A DNA stretch of 64,000 bases from an uncultured Bacteroidota bacterium (GTDB lineage: Bacteria > Bacteroidota > Bacteroidia > UKL13-3): positions 1-64,000 of the forward strand of contig CAIVZR010000004.1 in NCBI GenBank assembly GCA_903910445.1, read 5' to 3'. The translations under genes and the position numbers were made by a program. Each line of letters opens with the position of its first letter. The stretch's first letter is position 1. The notes under the pieces are model-generated. The model did no database searches and had not been told where the DNA came from. It saw nothing but the letters and a program-made list of their open reading frames with translations. Shown here in pieces: positions 15,258-60,048 of this stretch.

Positions 15258-15272
15258 GTAGCCCGTAGGGGA
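15258..15272 (+). repeat. Left attachment site (attL core)
   Basis: The 15 bases are identical to 19801-19815, the 3' end of tRNA-Glu. The bases beyond do not continue as a tRNA, so this is a fragment left by integration. Confidence 0.9.
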
Positions 15273-15385
15273 CTATATTAATTACTCTCTAGTTTTCTAT
15301 TTTTCTAATATTACTCCTATAATCCATTAATTGCAGGCTTTTGGTACTATCTAACAAATGTAATCAAAAGTAATTAAATGTAATA

Positions 15386-15420
15386 TTTGTGTAAGTATTG
15401 TGTAAGTATCCTTACATTTG
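15386..15420 (+). promoter_or_regulatory. Integrase promoter overlapping a 22-bp repeat
   Basis: TTTG at 15386-15389 and TACATTTG at 15413-15420 (spacing 23) form a Bacteroidota-type promoter 21 bases before the integrase ATG. The 22-bp repeat 15387-15408, two tandem TTGTGTAAGTA units, covers the -33 box and spacer. Integrase bound there could repress its own gene. Confidence 0.6.
15387..15408 (+). repeat. 22-bp repeat, probable integrase arm site (left)
   Basis: Two adjacent TTGTGTAAGTA units, identical over 22 bp to 19722-19743. It lies 114 bases inside the left att core. Arm-type sites of tyrosine integrases have this position and tandem form. Confidence 0.75.
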
Positions 15421-15441
15421 CAGTATTAAACTTCAAAATCA

Positions 15442-16659
15442 ATGGCAATAACTTACAACTTAATACTAAACAATAAAGCCAAAGAAGATGGCACTCATAC
15501 AATTCTTTTGAGAGTTACTGAAAATAGAAAGCATCAAGCTATTTCAACAGGAATTAGTGTGCCTTTTAAGGATTTCAATAAAAAAGCAGATTCAGGAAAA
15601 TGGATTCGAAAATCAAACTCAAGATTTAATCAACTAAATTCAGAACTCGATTCAAAGATTAATGAATTGAAGGATGCTAAGACAAAACTTCAAAGAAACA
15701 TTGCAGTTGTTACCTCTAAGCAAATTATAGCTGAAGCAAAGCAAAAGAATACAGATAGTTTTATTGAGTATTGGGAAAACATACTTCCTGTAGTTAGAGA
15801 AACAAAATCATACAACTTCTTTAAGAATTCTGTATCTAAATTGAAAAACCTAAATGAATTTTTAAAGGGTAGGGACCTTTTATTTACAGATTTAAACTAT
15901 GAATTCCTTACAAGGTATCAAGCCTATATGATTAAGAAAGGAAGTTCAATTAATACTATATATACTAACCTTAAAACAATAAGAATATATTTTTATAGAG
16001 CAGTAAAAGAAAAAAGATTGCAAGTGTATAACCCATTTAAAGACTTCCCATTGAAAGAAGAGGCAGGGCATAAGCAAAGACTTACCAAAGAGCAAATAAG
16101 GTCCTTAGAAGCCCTTGAAATTGATAGCAATTCAACATTGTATCATGTTAGGAATTACTTCCTATTTTCATACTATTGTGCTGGAATTCGGGTAGGTGAC
16201 TTTATTCAACTAAAATGGGAAAATATAGAAGATAATAAACTAATATATAGCATGGATAAAACAAGTGAAAAGCAAGTTCTTGAACTAATTGGTAAGGCTG
16301 AAGAAATTTTAAATCTTTACAAGCCTAAAAAGGTGCTAAAGAAAAATTTTATTTTCCCTCTACTTAGAAATGATATCGAATATACTGATGCTAAATTCCT
16401 GAATAGTCAAATAAGTTCTAAGACTGCATTGATAAATAAATACCTTAAAAAACTAGCCATCAAATGTGGTATTGAAAGTAATTTAACTTTTCATGTTAGC
16501 AGGCACTCCTATGCAGATATACTTATTAAGTCAGGGGCTTCAATCTATGATTTAAAAGGGTTGTTAAGACATTCAAGTACAAGCATTACTGAAAGGTATA
16601 TAGCTAGTTTAGATAATGAAGCATCTAATAAAGCACACAAAAAAGCTATGGAAGACTAG
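15442..16659 (+). CDS. int: Tyrosine recombinase / integrase
   Basis: A 405-residue site-specific recombinase of the type found in Bacteroidota mobile elements. It has an N-terminal arm-binding domain (about 1-95), a SAM-like core-binding domain (about 100-200) and a catalytic domain. The catalytic residues are all visible: Arg in CAGIRVGDF, His and Arg in HVSRHSY, His in RHSST, and the nucleophile Tyr in TERYIAS. It would catalyse integration and excision at the 15-bp core in tRNA-Glu. The gene is at the att end away from the tRNA and points into the element. The 3' end converges with the DUF4468 gene, 15 bases apart. Confidence 0.95.
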   Translation: MAITYNLILNNKAKEDGTHTILLRVTENRKHQAISTGISVPFKDFNKKADSGKWIRKSNSRFNQLNSELDSKINELKDAKTKLQRNIAVVTSKQIIAEAKQKNTDSFIEYWENILPVVRETKSYNFFKNSVSKLKNLNEFLKGRDLLFTDLNYEFLTRYQAYMIKKGSSINTIYTNLKTIRIYFYRAVKEKRLQVYNPFKDFPLKEEAGHKQRLTKEQIRSLEALEIDSNSTLYHVRNYFLFSYYCAGIRVGDFIQLKWENIEDNKLIYSMDKTSEKQVLELIGKAEEILNLYKPKKVLKKNFIFPLLRNDIEYTDAKFLNSQISSKTALINKYLKKLAIKCGIESNLTFHVSRHSYADILIKSGASIYDLKGLLRHSSTSITERYIASLDNEASNKAHKKAMED

Positions 16660-16674
16660 TCTAATTAAGAACTA

Positions 16675-17205
16675 TTACCACTCTGATTTTTTCGGACCAC
16701 TTAATTCAGCCTTCAAGCTATTCAACAAAGGGACAATTGAACCATCTATTGAAAGAAAACATTGCTTCATGTACTTTGTTTCAGACTTAGATATAAATGA
16801 ATTTATACTATAATAAGCACTTTCATCTGACCTATAATAGATTTCAGTCAATTCATATTTGTATTTGCCATCTTTGAAGTCAATTTGTAATCTGTATTTA
16901 TAGGTATAATTCATTGTTACTCCTGCATATTTATAGGGAATCGAAGTGCCTACCCCATTGATTATAATTCTTTCTTTATTGCTATCATCTTTATAGGAAA
17001 TAACCTTGTCTGGAGATACATATTTCTGGCTTATCCAACTTAATGCATTTTTGTATAAGATGTCTTTTGATGCACTATCAACTGAAATAACTTCTTGATA
17101 TATGACTTTAGAATTCTGTACAGGGATTCTTCCACATATAGTATCAATTTGCGCTATGCATTTTGTGGAAATGAAAATAACTAAGAAGAAAATTGAATAT
17201 TTCAT
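16675..17205 (-). CDS. Secreted DUF4468-like protein, element cargo
   Basis: A 176-residue protein with an N-terminal signal peptide (MKYSIFFLVIFISTKCIAQ). The pattern KVIYQEVISVDSASKDILY (about 33-51), NALSWISQKY, then a strand-rich YRLQIDFKDGKYKYELTEIYY resembles the DUF4468 (TBP-like fold) family, common in Bacteroidota and without known function. It is the only gene in the element on the opposite strand and the only one with an export signal. It may be a cargo gene that benefits or protects the host. Assignment by pattern only. Confidence 0.65.
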   Translation of the reverse strand: MKYSIFFLVIFISTKCIAQIDTICGRIPVQNSKVIYQEVISVDSASKDILYKNALSWISQKYVSPDKVISYKDDSNKERIIINGVGTSIPYKYAGVTMNYTYKYRLQIDFKDGKYKYELTEIYYRSDESAYYSINSFISKSETKYMKQCFLSIDGSIVPLLNSLKAELSGPKKSEW

Positions 17206-17320
17206 AAATGATGTATTAAATGTTTGATTTTGAATTTAGTTGATGCACAAAAATAGGATATATATTTAGTTACTAAAATTAATTGTTTATCAGTTTGAAC
17301 AAAGCAATATCCACATTCAT

Positions 17321-17490
17321 TTTGTGTTGTGGGTAAGTATGATTAAATGATGTAACTCAATAAAATCAATACTTACACAGATTATAAAACAAAAATTGCA
17401 TTTGTTTTTATATTTTGAACTGAATTTCATGTAACAGAAAGTCTGAATTCTTATTTATCAATGTAACAGGCAATAATTCTGTGTAACTCA
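17321..17490 (+). promoter_or_regulatory. Control region before the xis-rep-terS run, with repeated motifs
   Basis: AATACTTACACA at 17368-17379 is an inverted copy of half of the 22-bp arm repeats, and GGGTAAGTAT at 17331 is a degenerate direct copy. TGTAAC motifs occur four times: 17351 and 17482 as TGTAACTCA, 17430 and 17462 as TGTAACAG. The last one touches the start codon of the HTH gene. This looks like a cluster of binding sites for Int, Xis or another regulator, or an iteron-like origin. Confidence 0.5.
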
Positions 17491-17774
17491 TGCAATTCAC
17501 TTTAATTCCAGAAGAGAAATTCGAAGCACTTGTTTCTGACATTCAAGAAATCAAGGCAAAATTAGAATTGAAGCCAGAAGAAAATCTAGCTTCATCATTT
17601 ATTGAATCCAAGAAGGTCCCGAAAATTTTAGGGATTAGTCAAAAGACTTGGCAAACCTACAGGGATAAAGGTACTATCCCATTTATTCAATTTGGTTCAA
17701 AAATCTGGGTAAAACAAACAGATATTGAAGCCTTCCTGAATAGCCACTACATTAATAGAAATTCTAAATCCTAA
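17490..17774 (+). CDS. Excisionase-like helix-turn-helix protein
   Basis: A 94-residue protein. The first 40 residues form a coiled or helical region (KFEALVSDIQEIKAKLEL). The rest is a winged helix-turn-helix of the MerR/HTH_17 type: KVPKILGISQKTWQTYRDKGTIPFIQ, then a strand and GSKIWVKQTDIEAFLN. In Bacteroidota integrative elements such proteins act as recombination directionality factors (Xis) or transcription regulators. It starts the plus-strand operon; the next gene begins 5 bases after its stop. The TGTAAC repeats upstream may be its sites. Confidence 0.8.
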   Translation: MQFTLIPEEKFEALVSDIQEIKAKLELKPEENLASSFIESKKVPKILGISQKTWQTYRDKGTIPFIQFGSKIWVKQTDIEAFLNSHYINRNSKS

Positions 17775-17779
17775 AAGTC

Positions 17780-18262
17780 ATGAATCTAGAATTTATTAAA
17801 TCAAAACATAGTGTATTGGAATATACATTGAAGGAAGGGACAAAGGGAAGTTACTACTTGAATGAAAATTCGAAAATCGGAATTCTTCCACAAAGAATTT
17901 CATTGAGGTCATACGCAGGTGCAAAAGGTAGCAGATTCGCAAAGATTGAAATTAATGGCACTTACAAAAAGACTGAAGCTGGCATTTACAAGGACCTTAA
18001 TAAAGGGGTTATTCATTCTAAAATAATTGAAATTGATTCATACCCAATATTTTTAGGATGGGGGGAAATAGATGAAAGATTCAAAGTTTATGATTTGTTG
18101 GTTCTGTATAGTCCAGACAATTGTAAAACTATTCAAGTCAACTTATTCAATGGAATTGCAAAACCTGAATATCTAAATGCAGTTTGCAAGTATTTGCGAA
18201 GTAGTTTAATTGGGGGAAGAAATGAATCTAATCATGAGAAAGGGGATGGCAATGAATTTTGA
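17780..18262 (+). CDS. Unknown protein of the integrated element
   Basis: A 160-residue soluble protein with no signal peptide and no recognised family. Features: a Tyr-rich N-terminal part, YAGAKGSRFAKIEINGTYKK (about 45-64), and a central DSYPIFLGWGEIDERFKVYDLLVLY. The C-terminal residues GRNESNHEKGDGNEF are encoded where the next gene begins in another frame. It lies in the same position as small replication-linked proteins in other mobile elements, so a role with the next protein is likely but not shown. Confidence 0.6.
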   Translation: MNLEFIKSKHSVLEYTLKEGTKGSYYLNENSKIGILPQRISLRSYAGAKGSRFAKIEINGTYKKTEAGIYKDLNKGVIHSKIIEIDSYPIFLGWGEIDERFKVYDLLVLYSPDNCKTIQVNLFNGIAKPEYLNAVCKYLRSSLIGGRNESNHEKGDGNEF

Positions 18263-19205
18263 TTTTACAAGACTGATAAAAAATATAAAGAATGACAATG
18301 TTTGTCTTCATTCATTAACTCATAAAGCAAATTATTCAAATGGGGGTGAGAAGTTTATTCTAGAAGGATTGAAACCAATCACAATATTTTATGACCCTGT
18401 TGGAACTTCTTTGAAGATAGAAGCCAATCTTCCATACTTCTGGCAAGGTCATAACTTCCACTTTGAAAGGTCGCAAATGATTGAAGCAGTTAAATTTATG
18501 AATGACCAAATGAATCTAAATTTATTTAATGCAGAAGTGAATGAATTTGAATTTGGAAGCATTTTAGATATTGAATTTCCAGCTAATGTTTTTCTTCAGA
18601 ATCATATCAATTATAATGGTAAGCAGATGCAACCTTTTTTTCATAAAAGGTCTGGGAAGCTAACAGGAAAAACCTTTGAAGATTCAATTTTGATTCATAA
18701 ACTCTATGATGCTGGGCAGAATATTAAGAACAAGCTTTCTAAAGCCACTAGAGTTGATTTAAGCAATCAATATGGCTATGATAAAGAGAAGTATTACATC
18801 AAAATAGAAAACCACTATAAGAAGCCACAAATTCATTTTAAACAAAGAACTATTCTGATGAATGATGTTTTACAAAATGATTTCATGCAATTGTGTAAAG
18901 ATGATTTAATTAATTCATATAAAAGTATTATGAAAACAGGAATTGTGAAACTTCCAGATAGTAAAAGTGACATAAATGCAGGCACTCTCCCATTGATTTT
19001 ATTAAAAGAACTTGAAGCAATTTACCATTTTGATACAGAAGATTTATTAAGGGAAAAGATAAAGTCAATCTCTGAAGACAAATTGAGCAAAGAAGATAAG
19101 AAAGCAAGGCAAAAAATTTTGAAGGCAAATCTTCTTAAAATAAAATCTGAGCCAATAAGCAAATATGACATTTCGCAAAGACTTGAAGACAAGGAATTTT
19201 ATTAA
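18252..19205 (+). CDS. Candidate phage/plasmid replication initiator (gene II/X-like)
   Basis: The open frame starts at 18210, but the ATG at 18252 (11-base overlap with the previous gene) is the more likely start and gives 317 residues. The middle part has the pattern seen in replication initiators of filamentous phages and related plasmids: a strand-rich N-terminus with HSLTHKANYSNGGEKF, a helix EAVKFMNDQMNLNLFNAEV followed by NEFEFGSILDIEF, and ILIHKLYDAGQNIKNK. The C-terminus is highly charged (EDKLSKEDKKARQKI). If correct it would nick or open an origin so the element replicates after excision. No zinc finger or helicase domain is present. The assignment is by resemblance and moderate. 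Confidence 0.5.
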   Translation: MNFDFTRLIKNIKNDNVCLHSLTHKANYSNGGEKFILEGLKPITIFYDPVGTSLKIEANLPYFWQGHNFHFERSQMIEAVKFMNDQMNLNLFNAEVNEFEFGSILDIEFPANVFLQNHINYNGKQMQPFFHKRSGKLTGKTFEDSILIHKLYDAGQNIKNKLSKATRVDLSNQYGYDKEKYYIKIENHYKKPQIHFKQRTILMNDVLQNDFMQLCKDDLINSYKSIMKTGIVKLPDSKSDINAGTLPLILLKELEAIYHFDTEDLLREKIKSISEDKLSKEDKKARQKILKANLLKIKSEPISKYDISQRLEDKEFY

Positions 19206-19228
19206 CCCCTTTTATTAGTATTAAATTA

Positions 19229-19244
19229 GGTAAGATATCTTACC
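19229..19244. promoter_or_regulatory. Perfect 16-bp palindrome before the TerS-like gene
   Basis: GGTAAGATATCTTACC is fully self-complementary and ends 6 bases before the ATG at 19251. It may be an operator for a dimeric regulator or a hairpin that controls translation. Its GTAAG half resembles the core of the arm repeats. Confidence 0.6.
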
Positions 19245-19250
19245 CCATAG

Positions 19251-19703
19251 ATGATGGCAACACCACACACAGAAATTACACCTGAAGAAATTGAAGAACT
19301 TTCCTATAAGTATCTTGAAGATTGCCTAAGCAACAGAAGAGAGCAAGCTACTGCATCTGGGAAGGTAGTTTTAATTAAGGATAGGCATATACCTACAATT
19401 GATTACTTTCTTAGAATCTGGATTCCAAAGCAAGGGAAACCAACTATTTGCAGAACTACCTACTATAATTGGCTTAATGGGGTTGATGAAGTTAAGTTAA
19501 ACACTATAAAAAGGGTAGAGGGGCTATTTAAGGCATTGGCAATTGATGTTGTAGCAAATGATGGCAAAGGTATTTTCTATGCTAAGAATAGGCTTGGAAT
19601 GTCTGATAAGATTGATAAGTTCAATAGTGAACCTACTCACATAATAGTAACTTATGGAAAGGAAAATGAAAACCTCAAAAAACTTTCTTGGATAGACAAT
19701 TGA
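19251..19703 (+). CDS. Terminase small-subunit-like protein (gp3/TerS type)
   Basis: A 150-residue protein with the layout of small-terminase proteins of the P22 gp3 type. It has an N-terminal helical region with EELSYKYLEDCLSNRREQA, the linker KDRHIPTIDYFLRIWIP, an HTH-like CRTTYYNWLNGVDE (about 66-79), a helix KRVEGLFKAL, and the C-terminal GKGIFYAKNRLGMSDKI followed by a beta strand THIIVTYG. TerS chooses the DNA to be packaged by the large terminase. No large terminase is present, so it would have to work with one from a helper phage, as in PICI satellites. A plain HTH regulator is the main alternative. ATG codons at 19251 and 19254 are both possible. Confidence 0.6.
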   Translation: MMATPHTEITPEEIEELSYKYLEDCLSNRREQATASGKVVLIKDRHIPTIDYFLRIWIPKQGKPTICRTTYYNWLNGVDEVKLNTIKRVEGLFKALAIDVVANDGKGIFYAKNRLGMSDKIDKFNSEPTHIIVTYGKENENLKKLSWIDN

Positions 19704-19721
19704 AAAGGGCAAAACACACTA

Positions 19722-19743
19722 TTGTGTAAGTATTGTGTAAGTA
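19722..19743 (+). repeat. 22-bp repeat, probable integrase arm site (right)
   Basis: Identical over 22 bp to 15387-15408, in the same orientation, 57 bases inside the right att core. Confidence 0.75.
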
Positions 19744-19755
19744 GTAGAAATTAAA

Positions 19756-19795
19756 AAACCCTTGAACCTTTATCTAGTAAAGTATTCAAGGGTTT
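19756..19795 (-). terminator. Terminator of tRNA-Glu carried by the element
   Basis: AAACCCTTGAA pairs with TTCAAGGGTTT, and an inner CTTTA/TAAAG stem extends the hairpin. On the minus strand six Us follow. It replaces the terminator at 15211-15244, from which integration separated the tRNA. Confidence 0.8.
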
Positions 19796-19800
19796 AATAT

Positions 19801-19815
19801 GTAGCCCGTAGGGGA
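19801..19815 (+). repeat. Right attachment site (attR core) in the tRNA 3' end
   Basis: Exact copy of 15258-15272. It covers the acceptor 3' strand and part of the T arm, so the tRNA stays intact after integration. Confidence 0.9.
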
Positions 19816-19873
19816 GTCGAACCCCTCTTTCCAGGATGAAAACCTAGCGGCCTAACCGATAGCCGAACGGGCC
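19802..19873 (-). tRNA. tRNA-Glu (anticodon TTC)
   Basis: Read on the minus strand the gene begins GGCCCGTTCGGCTATCGG and folds as a cloverleaf. The acceptor stem GGCCCGT pairs with ACGGGCT (one G-T pair at the end), the anticodon loop TTTTCAT gives anticodon TTC, and the T arm is GAGGGGTTCGACTCCCC. The discriminator base is A and CCA is not encoded. Its 3' end serves as the attachment site of the element. Confidence 0.95.
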
Positions 19874-24292: not shown

Positions 24293-25288
24293 ATGTCGGT
24301 AAAGAAAGGACTCACGTATCTGCTCTTTTTTGGAATCAGTGCGTTCCTTCTTTATCTTACCTTTAAAAACACAGAGTTTTCTAAGATAGAAGAAAGTGTC
24401 GCCTCCTTGCATTGGGGTTATGTTTTCTTGTGTTTTATTACTACCCTCTTTGCCCATTTTTTACGTGCCTGGCGCTGGAAATTACTCCTTGAACCTATGG
24501 GCTATAAGGCCAGATTGAGTACGAGCTTCTACGCTGTGATGATAGGATATCTTACCAATTATGCCATTCCACGCGGTGGAGAACTGGCACGGTGTGGTGT
24601 GATGTTCGGCACAGATAAAATTCCGGTTGATAAACTTCTGGGTACCGTAGTCACCGAGCGAATCATCGACTTGCTGATTTTGATGGTGATTTTCATTCTA
24701 ACACTATTTATAGCATTTAGTACCATCAATAATTTCGTGCACTTCGATCAGCTTTGGTCACAACATCACCAGTTAATTTACGGACTGATTGGGGCCGCGA
24801 TCATTGCTTTAATACTCTTGGCAATCTTCAGAAAATCAGTTATGAAATGGGGGCCAATTCAAAAAGTATTGAATATCCTAAAAGGCTTCAACGAAGGACT
24901 TTTAAGCGTTTTTAAAATTAAGAATCAGCTATTGTTTTGGGCACAATCCATTGGAATTTGGATTGGGTTTTTCTTCATCAATTATACTTTCATGCACGCA
25001 CTTCCAATTACCGAAAACCTCTCGTGGGAAGTTGTACTGGTGGTGCTCGCCATGGGTGCGGTAGGCTTTGCCATTCCTACTCCAGGAGGCGCTGGATCCT
25101 ACCATTATATCATTAAAATAACCTTAATGTTCTATATGCTTTCTGCTGCCGATGCCGAAATATATGCTTTGGTATCACATACTGCACAAGCTGCCTTCAT
25201 CGCTATCTCAGGAAGTATCTGTTTATACCTCGCTTTTATCGAACGCAAAAAAACAAGTTATGAATCATCAACAAACGCAGAAGCATAA
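24293..25288 (+). CDS. Flippase-like integral membrane protein (LPG synthase TM / UPF0104)
   Basis: A 331-residue protein with about eight membrane helices. It has the family pattern HFLRAWRWKLLLEPMG (about 54), YAIPRGGELARCGVM (about 86) and the late glycine-rich FAIPTPGGAGSYHYI (about 260). It belongs to the group of membrane domains related to the lysylphosphatidylglycerol synthase flippase half, but the cytoplasmic transferase half is missing. A role in moving a lipid or glycolipid is likely. Its last 29 bases overlap the rfaE2 gene. Confidence 0.85.
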   Translation: MSVKKGLTYLLFFGISAFLLYLTFKNTEFSKIEESVASLHWGYVFLCFITTLFAHFLRAWRWKLLLEPMGYKARLSTSFYAVMIGYLTNYAIPRGGELARCGVMFGTDKIPVDKLLGTVVTERIIDLLILMVIFILTLFIAFSTINNFVHFDQLWSQHHQLIYGLIGAAIIALILLAIFRKSVMKWGPIQKVLNILKGFNEGLLSVFKIKNQLLFWAQSIGIWIGFFFINYTFMHALPITENLSWEVVLVVLAMGAVGFAIPTPGGAGSYHYIIKITLMFYMLSAADAEIYALVSHTAQAAFIAISGSICLYLAFIERKKTSYESSTNAEA

Positions 25289-57029: not shown

Positions 57030-57881
57030 ATGGGTCAAAAAGTTAATCCAATTGGTTTACGCTTAGGTATCATCCGCGGATGGGACAGCAACTGGTACGG
57101 TGGTAATAATTACGCCGACAAAATCGTTGAAGACGAAAAAATTCGTAAATATCTACTGGTGCGCGTACCGAAAGGTGGCATCGCTCGTTCAGTAATCGAA
57201 CGTACATTGAAGCGCATCACCATCACTATCCATACTGCTCGTCCGGGAATCGTTATCGGAAAGGGTGGTCAGGAAGTTGATAAAATCAAAGAAGAATTAA
57301 AACAACTTACCAAGAAGGAAGTTCAAATCAATATCTACGAAGTTAAGAAACCTGATTTGGATGCTAAATTGGTAGCCGATAATGTGGCCTCTCAATTAGA
57401 AGCTCGTATCTCTTTCCGTCGTGCCGTGAAATCAGCAATTGCTGCTTCTATGCGTGCAGGTGCTGAAGGAATCAAGATCCGCGTTTCAGGTCGTATCGGT
57501 GGAGCTGAAATGGCTCGCTCTGAACAATATAAAGAAGGAAGAACTCCATTACATACTTTACGTGCTGATGTTGATTACGCTTTAAGCGAAGCATTAACAG
57601 TATACGGTAAATTGGGTGTGAAGGTTTGGTTATGCCGCGGTGAAATCTACGGTAAACGTGACCTTTCTCCAAATGTAGGAATGGAAGCTCGCAACGAAGG
57701 TGGAAACGCTTCAGGTGGTTTCCGTGGTCGCGAAAGAAGCGATGACCGTAGAGAACGCCCTGATCGTAGAAGCGGTGGTGGCGACAGAAGAGGCGGAAGC
57801 GGTGCTGGTGGCGATAGAAGAGGCGGAAGCGGTGCTGGTGGAAATCGCGGTGGCAACGGTGGAGGCGGATTCAAACGCTAG
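57030..57881 (+). CDS. rpsC: 30S ribosomal protein S3 with a long Gly/Arg-rich tail
   Basis: A 283-residue S3. The KH domain contains [17 protein letters not shown], and [17 protein letters not shown] with [14 protein letters not shown] defines the C-terminal domain, ending near 213. A tail of about 70 residues rich in Gly, Arg and Asp follows (for example [17 protein letters not shown]), encoded partly by a 30-bp tandem repeat (57780-57839). Typical S3 proteins have 210-240 residues. The cluster ends here; rplP, rpmC and rpsQ do not follow. Confidence 0.96.
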
Positions 57882-59810: not shown

Positions 59811-60048
59811 TGAATAGAACTTTGGATAACTGATGCAACTAATTTGAAACAACAGAGTCAAAGATTAAATTAAGGAGTACTATTTGCCAATTTTAGTAGT
59901 TATCCCAATAAATTGCTTTATTTCCTAAATTGATTAATAACTCACCAACGTTTTAAATACATCAATTGTATAAGCATTAGACAACCGGGAATGCCGAAAA
60001 CCGAAAAAACAGAGTAGGCACTAAAAATTATCATAAAATCACCCCTTA

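Follow-up and report, generated by a model that had tools for sequence, protein, structure and literature searches.

Insertion site and gene content of the element

This report concerns a small integrated element (the window element) in the genome of an uncultured Bacteroidota bacterium (Bacteroidia; UKL13-3; assembly GCA_903910445.1). The DNA analyzed, referred to here as the window, comprises 64,000 nt of contig CAIVZR010000004.1, and coordinates without a prefix are window positions. The window element occupies 4,543 bp between exact 15-bp repeats at the 3' end of a tRNA-Glu gene, an insertion described in an original prediction as a compact satellite of a Bacteroidota phage. The repeat, GTAGCCCGTAGGGGA, is found at 15258–15272 (the attL side, a copy of the 3' end of the tRNA gene) and at 19801–19815 (attR), the last 15 bp of the tRNA-Glu(TTC) gene that serves as the integration site (19801–19873, reverse strand; ARAGORN, Rfam RF00005). 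G022, a genome from the same genus as the host, has an empty site, in which the flanks are joined with a single 15-bp copy and the 4,543 bp are absent: the left flank corresponds to L113:5995–6788 and the right flank to L113:6774–7373, with an overlap of exactly 15 bases, and the GAPDH protein adjoining the site is 100% identical between the window and G022. The repeats are not due to chance, because the flanks in G022 share exactly these 15 bases without the element, and the predicted insertion with att repeats in tRNA-Glu is thus borne out. Another genome of the genus, G020, carries a different tyrosine integrase gene (L115:1434–2651) directly beside the same tRNA-Glu, which suggests that the window element is not the only one to use this site.

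A 22-bp repeat formed by two tandem 11-mers (TTGTGTAAGTA twice) is present inside both ends of the window element, at 15387–15408 and, in an identical copy, at 19722–19743 (both forward strand). The same layout is found at both ends of the related elements L005, L007 and L016, with a related 11-mer (AGTTTCAGTAA, twice at each end) in L016. These repeats are putative integrase arm-type sites, given their typical layout and the arm-binding domain of the integrase.

The element has six genes, all open and located as originally predicted, and all but one on the forward strand. The tyrosine integrase (405 aa, 15442–16659) has a catalytic domain (PF00589, 3.7e-19) together with SAM-like (PF13102) and arm-binding (PF17293) domains, and is 48–49% identical to its counterparts in L005 and L007. 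The gene at 17490–17774 encodes an excisionase-like protein (xis) with a helix-turn-helix (HTH) motif of the HTH_17 type, 61–68% identical in relatives; its matches to PF12728 (3e-8) and to the excisionase/regulator family phrog_66 (1.1e-6) agree with the Xis-like role proposed for it. The int and xis genes are on the same strand and are separated only by a reverse-strand gene (16675–17205) for a DUF4468 protein with a signal-like N-terminus (PF14730, 3.1e-14; phrog_4002, 2.2e-19). Downstream from xis are orf160 (17780–18262), a conserved partner upstream of rep that is 49–54% identical in L005, L006 and L007, and the genes for a 317-aa replication initiator (Rep, 18252–19205) and a 150-aa terminase small subunit (TerS, 19251–19703). 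The orf160 product forms a family of its own; no homology was detected between it and the protein that takes its place in other satellites. Pfam and PHROGs scans revealed no structural, lysis or relaxase gene, as had been predicted, and no filamentous-phage coat or morphogenesis gene in the element; no primase match was found among its proteins.

The terminase small subunit

The protein encoded at 19251 itself matches no Pfam or PHROG family, and its profile gave only chance matches with PDB sequences. However, its resemblance to a terminase small subunit, as originally proposed, is confirmed by the context of its homologues. A scan of the viral contig collection with the TerS alignment yielded 173 relatives, and a homologue of the terminase large subunit (TerL) lies directly downstream of TerS in 79 of the best 80 of these, the set analyzed. 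The 400-aa protein following TerS in L055 and L092 carries a large-terminase domain (PF03237, with 1.8e-20 for L055), and annotated TerLs, among them those of Thermus phages P23-45 and G20c, are matched by the L055 protein. The window TerS is itself 57% identical, over 108 residues, to the phage TerS at L055:9977–10378. On these sequence grounds, the product of the gene at 19251 is identified as a terminase small subunit, predicted to bind DNA and to stimulate TerL.

In a tree, a branch supported at 100/100 separates seven satellite TerS sequences from 46 phage TerS sequences, although the latter were drawn from the best 80 of the 173 relatives and deeper sampling could change this split. Both TerS and Rep are under purifying selection (for TerS, dN of 0.14–0.31 against dS of at least 0.8), a result that is safe only in its direction, as dS is near saturation. 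The slot after rep is not always filled by the same family: it holds a Terminase_2 protein in L016 (PF03592, 6e-21) and an Sf6-type TerS in L146 and L147 (PF20901), the order in L147 being HTH, a 158-aa protein, a PF05144 Rep and TerS. At least three unrelated TerS families thus occupy this slot across the relatives, the supported types being PF03592, PF20901 and the window type. In Bacteroidia, DUF5681 or DUF5681-like proteins are repeatedly encoded by the first or second gene downstream of a rolling-circle Rep (L117–L121, L124 and L129), and it is conceivable, as a guess, that they are a further type of TerS.

The replication initiator

Rep has no direct family match in the Pfam and PHROGs scans, its profile gave only chance matches with PDB sequences, and single-sequence scans of the viral and genome contig collections returned no match. 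Iterative profiles were built from five close relatives, with matches added only below 1e-4; in the second round, they reached a broad set of Bacteroidia Rep proteins and the PF05144 (G2P/Phage_CRI) members L150 (5e-9) and L149 (5e-8). Against a background of 491 frames, scores below 0.1 came only from Rep genes or from fragments of their loci. Modeling from four sequences gave no usable structure (pLDDT 40), and a confident model (pLDDT 93.6) was obtained only with an alignment of 35 sequences including distant relatives. In the PDB, the only matches to this model with E < 0.01 were the plasmid rolling-circle initiators 4cwe and 4cij (RepD/RepDE), with Z scores of 11.4 and 10.3, respectively, against 7.2 for the next fold, and the second match in BFVD was an Inoviridae protein. 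Matches to TBP (Z about 7) were read as a common shared arrangement rather than kinship. Across the 35 sequences, Y152 is invariant and E186 and N68 are nearly so. Profiles and fold together indicate that the 18252 protein, predicted to be a phage replication initiator, is indeed an initiator, of the rolling-circle type and distantly related to G2P of filamentous phages, with a tyrosine predicted to nick DNA. Rep relatives of the L009 type are present in 35 of 395 Bacteroidia genomes, including that of the window. An alignment scan of the viral contig collection found no Rep match, and none was found for the PF05144-type Rep of L112.

Conserved gene order and exchange of modules

A search with Rep in 64 genomes of the host family identified three relatives with 54–57% identity (L005, L006 and L007), and a scan of the genome contig collection added L016. 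The order int-cargo-xis-orf160-rep is conserved in L005, L007 and L016, and xis-orf160-rep in L006, in which the contig ends. The att repeats of the relatives are 14–16 bp long, and element sizes, taken from these repeats only where both ends are present, are 4,060 bp (L005), 4,897 bp (L007) and 7,551 bp (L016). A tRNA-Phe gene adjoins three of the elements, and tRNA-Arg lies near L016. The expectation that the same six-gene order would be found beside tRNA-Glu in related genomes thus holds for the order (xis-orf160-rep, preceded by int wherever the contig extends far enough) but not for the site. Other genes lie between int and xis in L005 and L016; since the gene there differs between elements, this interval is an exchangeable cargo slot, in keeping with the proposal that DUF4468 is cargo. 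A DUF4468 gene also adjoins Rep relatives in L125 and L132. Most relatives have a gene for a 70–85-aa protein after terS, possibly with a helper-related function, that is missing in the window element (L006:8721–8936, L007:8117–8341, L110:2318–2554, L111:5708–5953, L112:8524–8781, L019:203–430 and L129:566–778, where its presence in a satellite of another family is possible and was judged by eye).

The same TerS lineage is also found with other replication modules. A search of the host family with the TerS alignment led to six genomes. In L112, int and xis are accompanied by a 180-aa gene, a clear G2P Rep (PF05144, 1.6e-21) and a TerS 77% identical to that of the window element, whereas TerS is preceded by a DUF6371 protein in L111 and by another Rep in L110. 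L019, the sole exception among the 80 viral contigs analyzed for TerS, is a complete satellite rather than a phage; it encodes an integrase (PF00589), an HTH protein, an AAA ATPase, a DUF6371 protein and a TerS of the window lineage. The ends of this contig (L019:1–7164) overlap by exactly 114 bp within terS, and it therefore corresponds to a 7,050-bp circle or a concatemer. We lean slightly towards the view that Bacteroidota have a large class of minimal satellites of their own, with a core formed by a small integrase-xis unit and terS. In this view, unrelated replication modules (G2P-type rolling-circle Rep, a DUF6371 gene with an AAA ATPase, and others) would be exchanged within that core, as would unrelated TerS families, with each TerS suited to its own group of helper phages, most of them virulent.

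A conserved non-coding block and other features

A conserved non-coding block (19203–19244, forward strand) begins at the rep stop codon with ACCCCTTTTATTA, followed by the perfect dyad GGTAAGATATCTTACC (19229–19244). The same block is present in L005, L006, L007 and L016: in all five elements with the window type of Rep, ACCCCTTTTATTA or a close variant is found at the rep stop and GGTAAGATATCTTACC or a close variant 12–14 bases further on, regardless of whether the next gene encodes a window-type TerS, a Terminase_2 TerS or neither. The origin of PICIs (see below) has iterons 3' of rep; the repeat search listed no such set here, although the conserved block with its dyad occupies this position. 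The dyad also occurs after int in L006, L007 and L112. The block is a candidate origin or operator, both of which are possible from its sequence and position. A packaging or late-gene signal shared with phages was considered for the dyad GGTAAGAnATCTTACC and rejected, as 751 kb of phage contigs gave a single weak match. A copy of the dyad with one mismatch, GATAGGATATCTTACC, lies in host DNA outside the element, at 24541–24556. Elsewhere in the window are a DUF805b cis-regulatory RNA (Rfam, 59984–60020, 42 bits), unrelated to the element, and a 30-bp tandem repeat (57776–57841, 2.2 copies, 97% matches).

Candidate helpers, proposed life cycle and alternatives

The candidate helpers are uncultured phages of about 32 kb in IMG/VR (L055, L095 and others), and it is the kinship of their TerS that suggests they may act as helpers of the window element. 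Exact repeats are present at the ends of two of the TerS-phage contigs, 127 bp long in one of 32,237 bp and 260 bp long in another of 32,120 bp, and these phage genomes are therefore probably complete at about 32 kb. No integrase was detected in ten TerS-phage records, some of them fragments, and the TerL of these phages has no close match in the 64 host-family genomes, as would be expected if the helpers are not prophages there. Taken together with the lack of TerS matches in phage records described below, this indicates that the helpers are probably uncultured and perhaps virulent.

Infection by a tailed helper phage would lead to excision of the element as a circle by the integrase and the HTH protein. 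Rep would then nick the origin, possibly located in the conserved block that follows its gene, and generate head-to-tail copies. The element's own TerS would mark this DNA and recruit the large terminase of the helper, such that helper particles of full size could receive a concatemer of several copies (about seven per 32-kb head), and the injected DNA would circularize and re-integrate at tRNA-Glu. The closeness of 7 x 4,543 bp to the helper genome size was not used as evidence, because headful packaging does not require an integer.

The window element is very probably a minimal, integrative, TerS-encoding phage satellite that replicates by the rolling-circle mechanism, and the compact Bacteroidota phage satellite originally proposed is supported by the context of TerS, the profile and fold of Rep, and the gene order maintained in relatives. 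Several points weigh against this interpretation. The TerS of the candidate helpers has no match in 50,697 phage records, no cultured helper is known, and a pac site could not be recognized. For the window element, we infer excision, the use of a helper and packaging from its genes, and a G2P-type initiator may not produce double-stranded concatemers that a terminase could use. L005 has the same module without TerS, which is therefore not universal, and a TerS-like or DUF5681-like gene follows Rep in only about 11 of 30 loci of the wider Rep superfamily inspected, roughly one third, so that Rep alone is not a marker of satellites.

The membership of Rep in the G2P superfamily, the many Rep relatives with no TerS-like neighbor and the lack of TerS in L005 could also be explained by an integrated rolling-circle plasmid or a filamentous-phage remnant, moving by excision and uptake or with conjugative helpers, in which the terminase-like gene is used otherwise, for example in regulation. 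This seems quite unlikely, given that the window element has neither a filamentous-phage morphogenesis gene nor a relaxase gene, that the search found no plasmid match, and that purifying selection acts on TerS, which is found after differing replication modules. Moreover, packaging, but not regulation, accounts for the presence of three unrelated TerS families in the same slot. A degraded tailed-phage prophage that has kept an integrase, a replication initiator and terS is extremely unlikely: the integrase and TerS are of phage type, but all the genes are open, the att ends are complete, the same compact order is found in several genomes, the satellite TerS clade stands apart from phage TerS, and no integrase was detected in the candidate phages. 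It is very unlikely that the element is an immobile satellite with intact genes, domesticated for phage defense, for example. Its occurrence in one of five genomes of the genus would be compatible with such a fate, but this patchy presence, the clean empty site and the intact att and arm sites favor recent movement.

Comparison with known systems

Phage satellites have been defined as discrete mobile elements without virion genes that carry genes or signals favoring their packaging by phages and whose DNA is found in helper particles (PMC11389934). The window element is discrete, as seen from the empty site in G022, and has no structural genes; its TerS, identified by context and homology, is a gene that would favor packaging. 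As for DNA in particles, the related element L019 was recovered as a self-overlapping 7,050-bp molecule in the viral contig collection.

Phage-inducible chromosomal islands (PICIs), including the Staphylococcus aureus pathogenicity islands (SaPIs), are induced by helper phages, integrate by means of a site-specific integrase and have xis and rep, and some use a terS of their own to redirect helper packaging (PMC6092414). The window element similarly integrates at a specific site and has xis, rep and its own terS, and the combination of int, xis, rep and terS noted in the original comparison with PICIs is therefore present. However, the divergent master regulator (rpr/stl) of PICIs is absent between int and xis, Rep is a rolling-circle initiator rather than a primase-type pri-rep module, and the element is only 4.5 kb long, has a Bacteroidota host and contains no recognized interference or capsid genes. 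The phage-inducible chromosomal minimalist islands (PICMIs) of Vibrionaceae have int, alpA and a primase and adjoin fis, with no terS homologue detected in them; rolling-circle replication, concatemer packaging and a virulent helper have been reported for PICMI115 (6,110 bp) (PMC10803314). The window element resembles PICMIs in its six genes, lack of capsid remodeling and short repeats (17 bp in PICMIs and 15 bp here), but differs from them in its position at tRNA-Glu, its lack of a primase and its possession of terS and a G2P-type Rep. It can thus be likened to PICIs in its use of TerS and to PICMIs in its small size and probable concatemers and, as far as can be judged from sequence, it is a phage satellite that is neither a PICI nor a PICMI as these are defined.

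Inoviruses share with the window element a Rep distantly related to PF05144, and a clear PF05144 Rep takes the corresponding position in L112, but the filamentous-phage structural and assembly genes are absent here. Unlike the ~32-kb IMG/VR phages, the satellite has no TerL, and its TerS belongs to a separate clade. Virion-encapsidated integrative mobile elements (VEIMEs) and tycheposons are reportedly packaged as concatemers. They are integrative elements of marine bacteria found in environmental virions (named in PMC10803314 and PMC11389934). An overlap between VEIMEs and the family of the window element is possible and would lower its novelty. No Bacteroidota satellite of this make-up has been described in the searchable literature, a comparison outside which the VEIME set lies. 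Charybdis elements, which are of similar size, were set aside, as they have an archaeal host and the available part of the source describes no integrase-Rep-TerS order (PMC12324425).

The window element is smaller than the PICIs compared and the 6.1-kb PICMI, but nonetheless has a gene for packaging specificity, and it combines an initiator of plasmid or filamentous-phage type with a tailed-phage TerS. The kinship of this TerS to a defined group of uncultured phages of about 32 kb makes the choice of helper testable, and the exchange of replication modules next to a conserved TerS is relevant to the origins of satellites.

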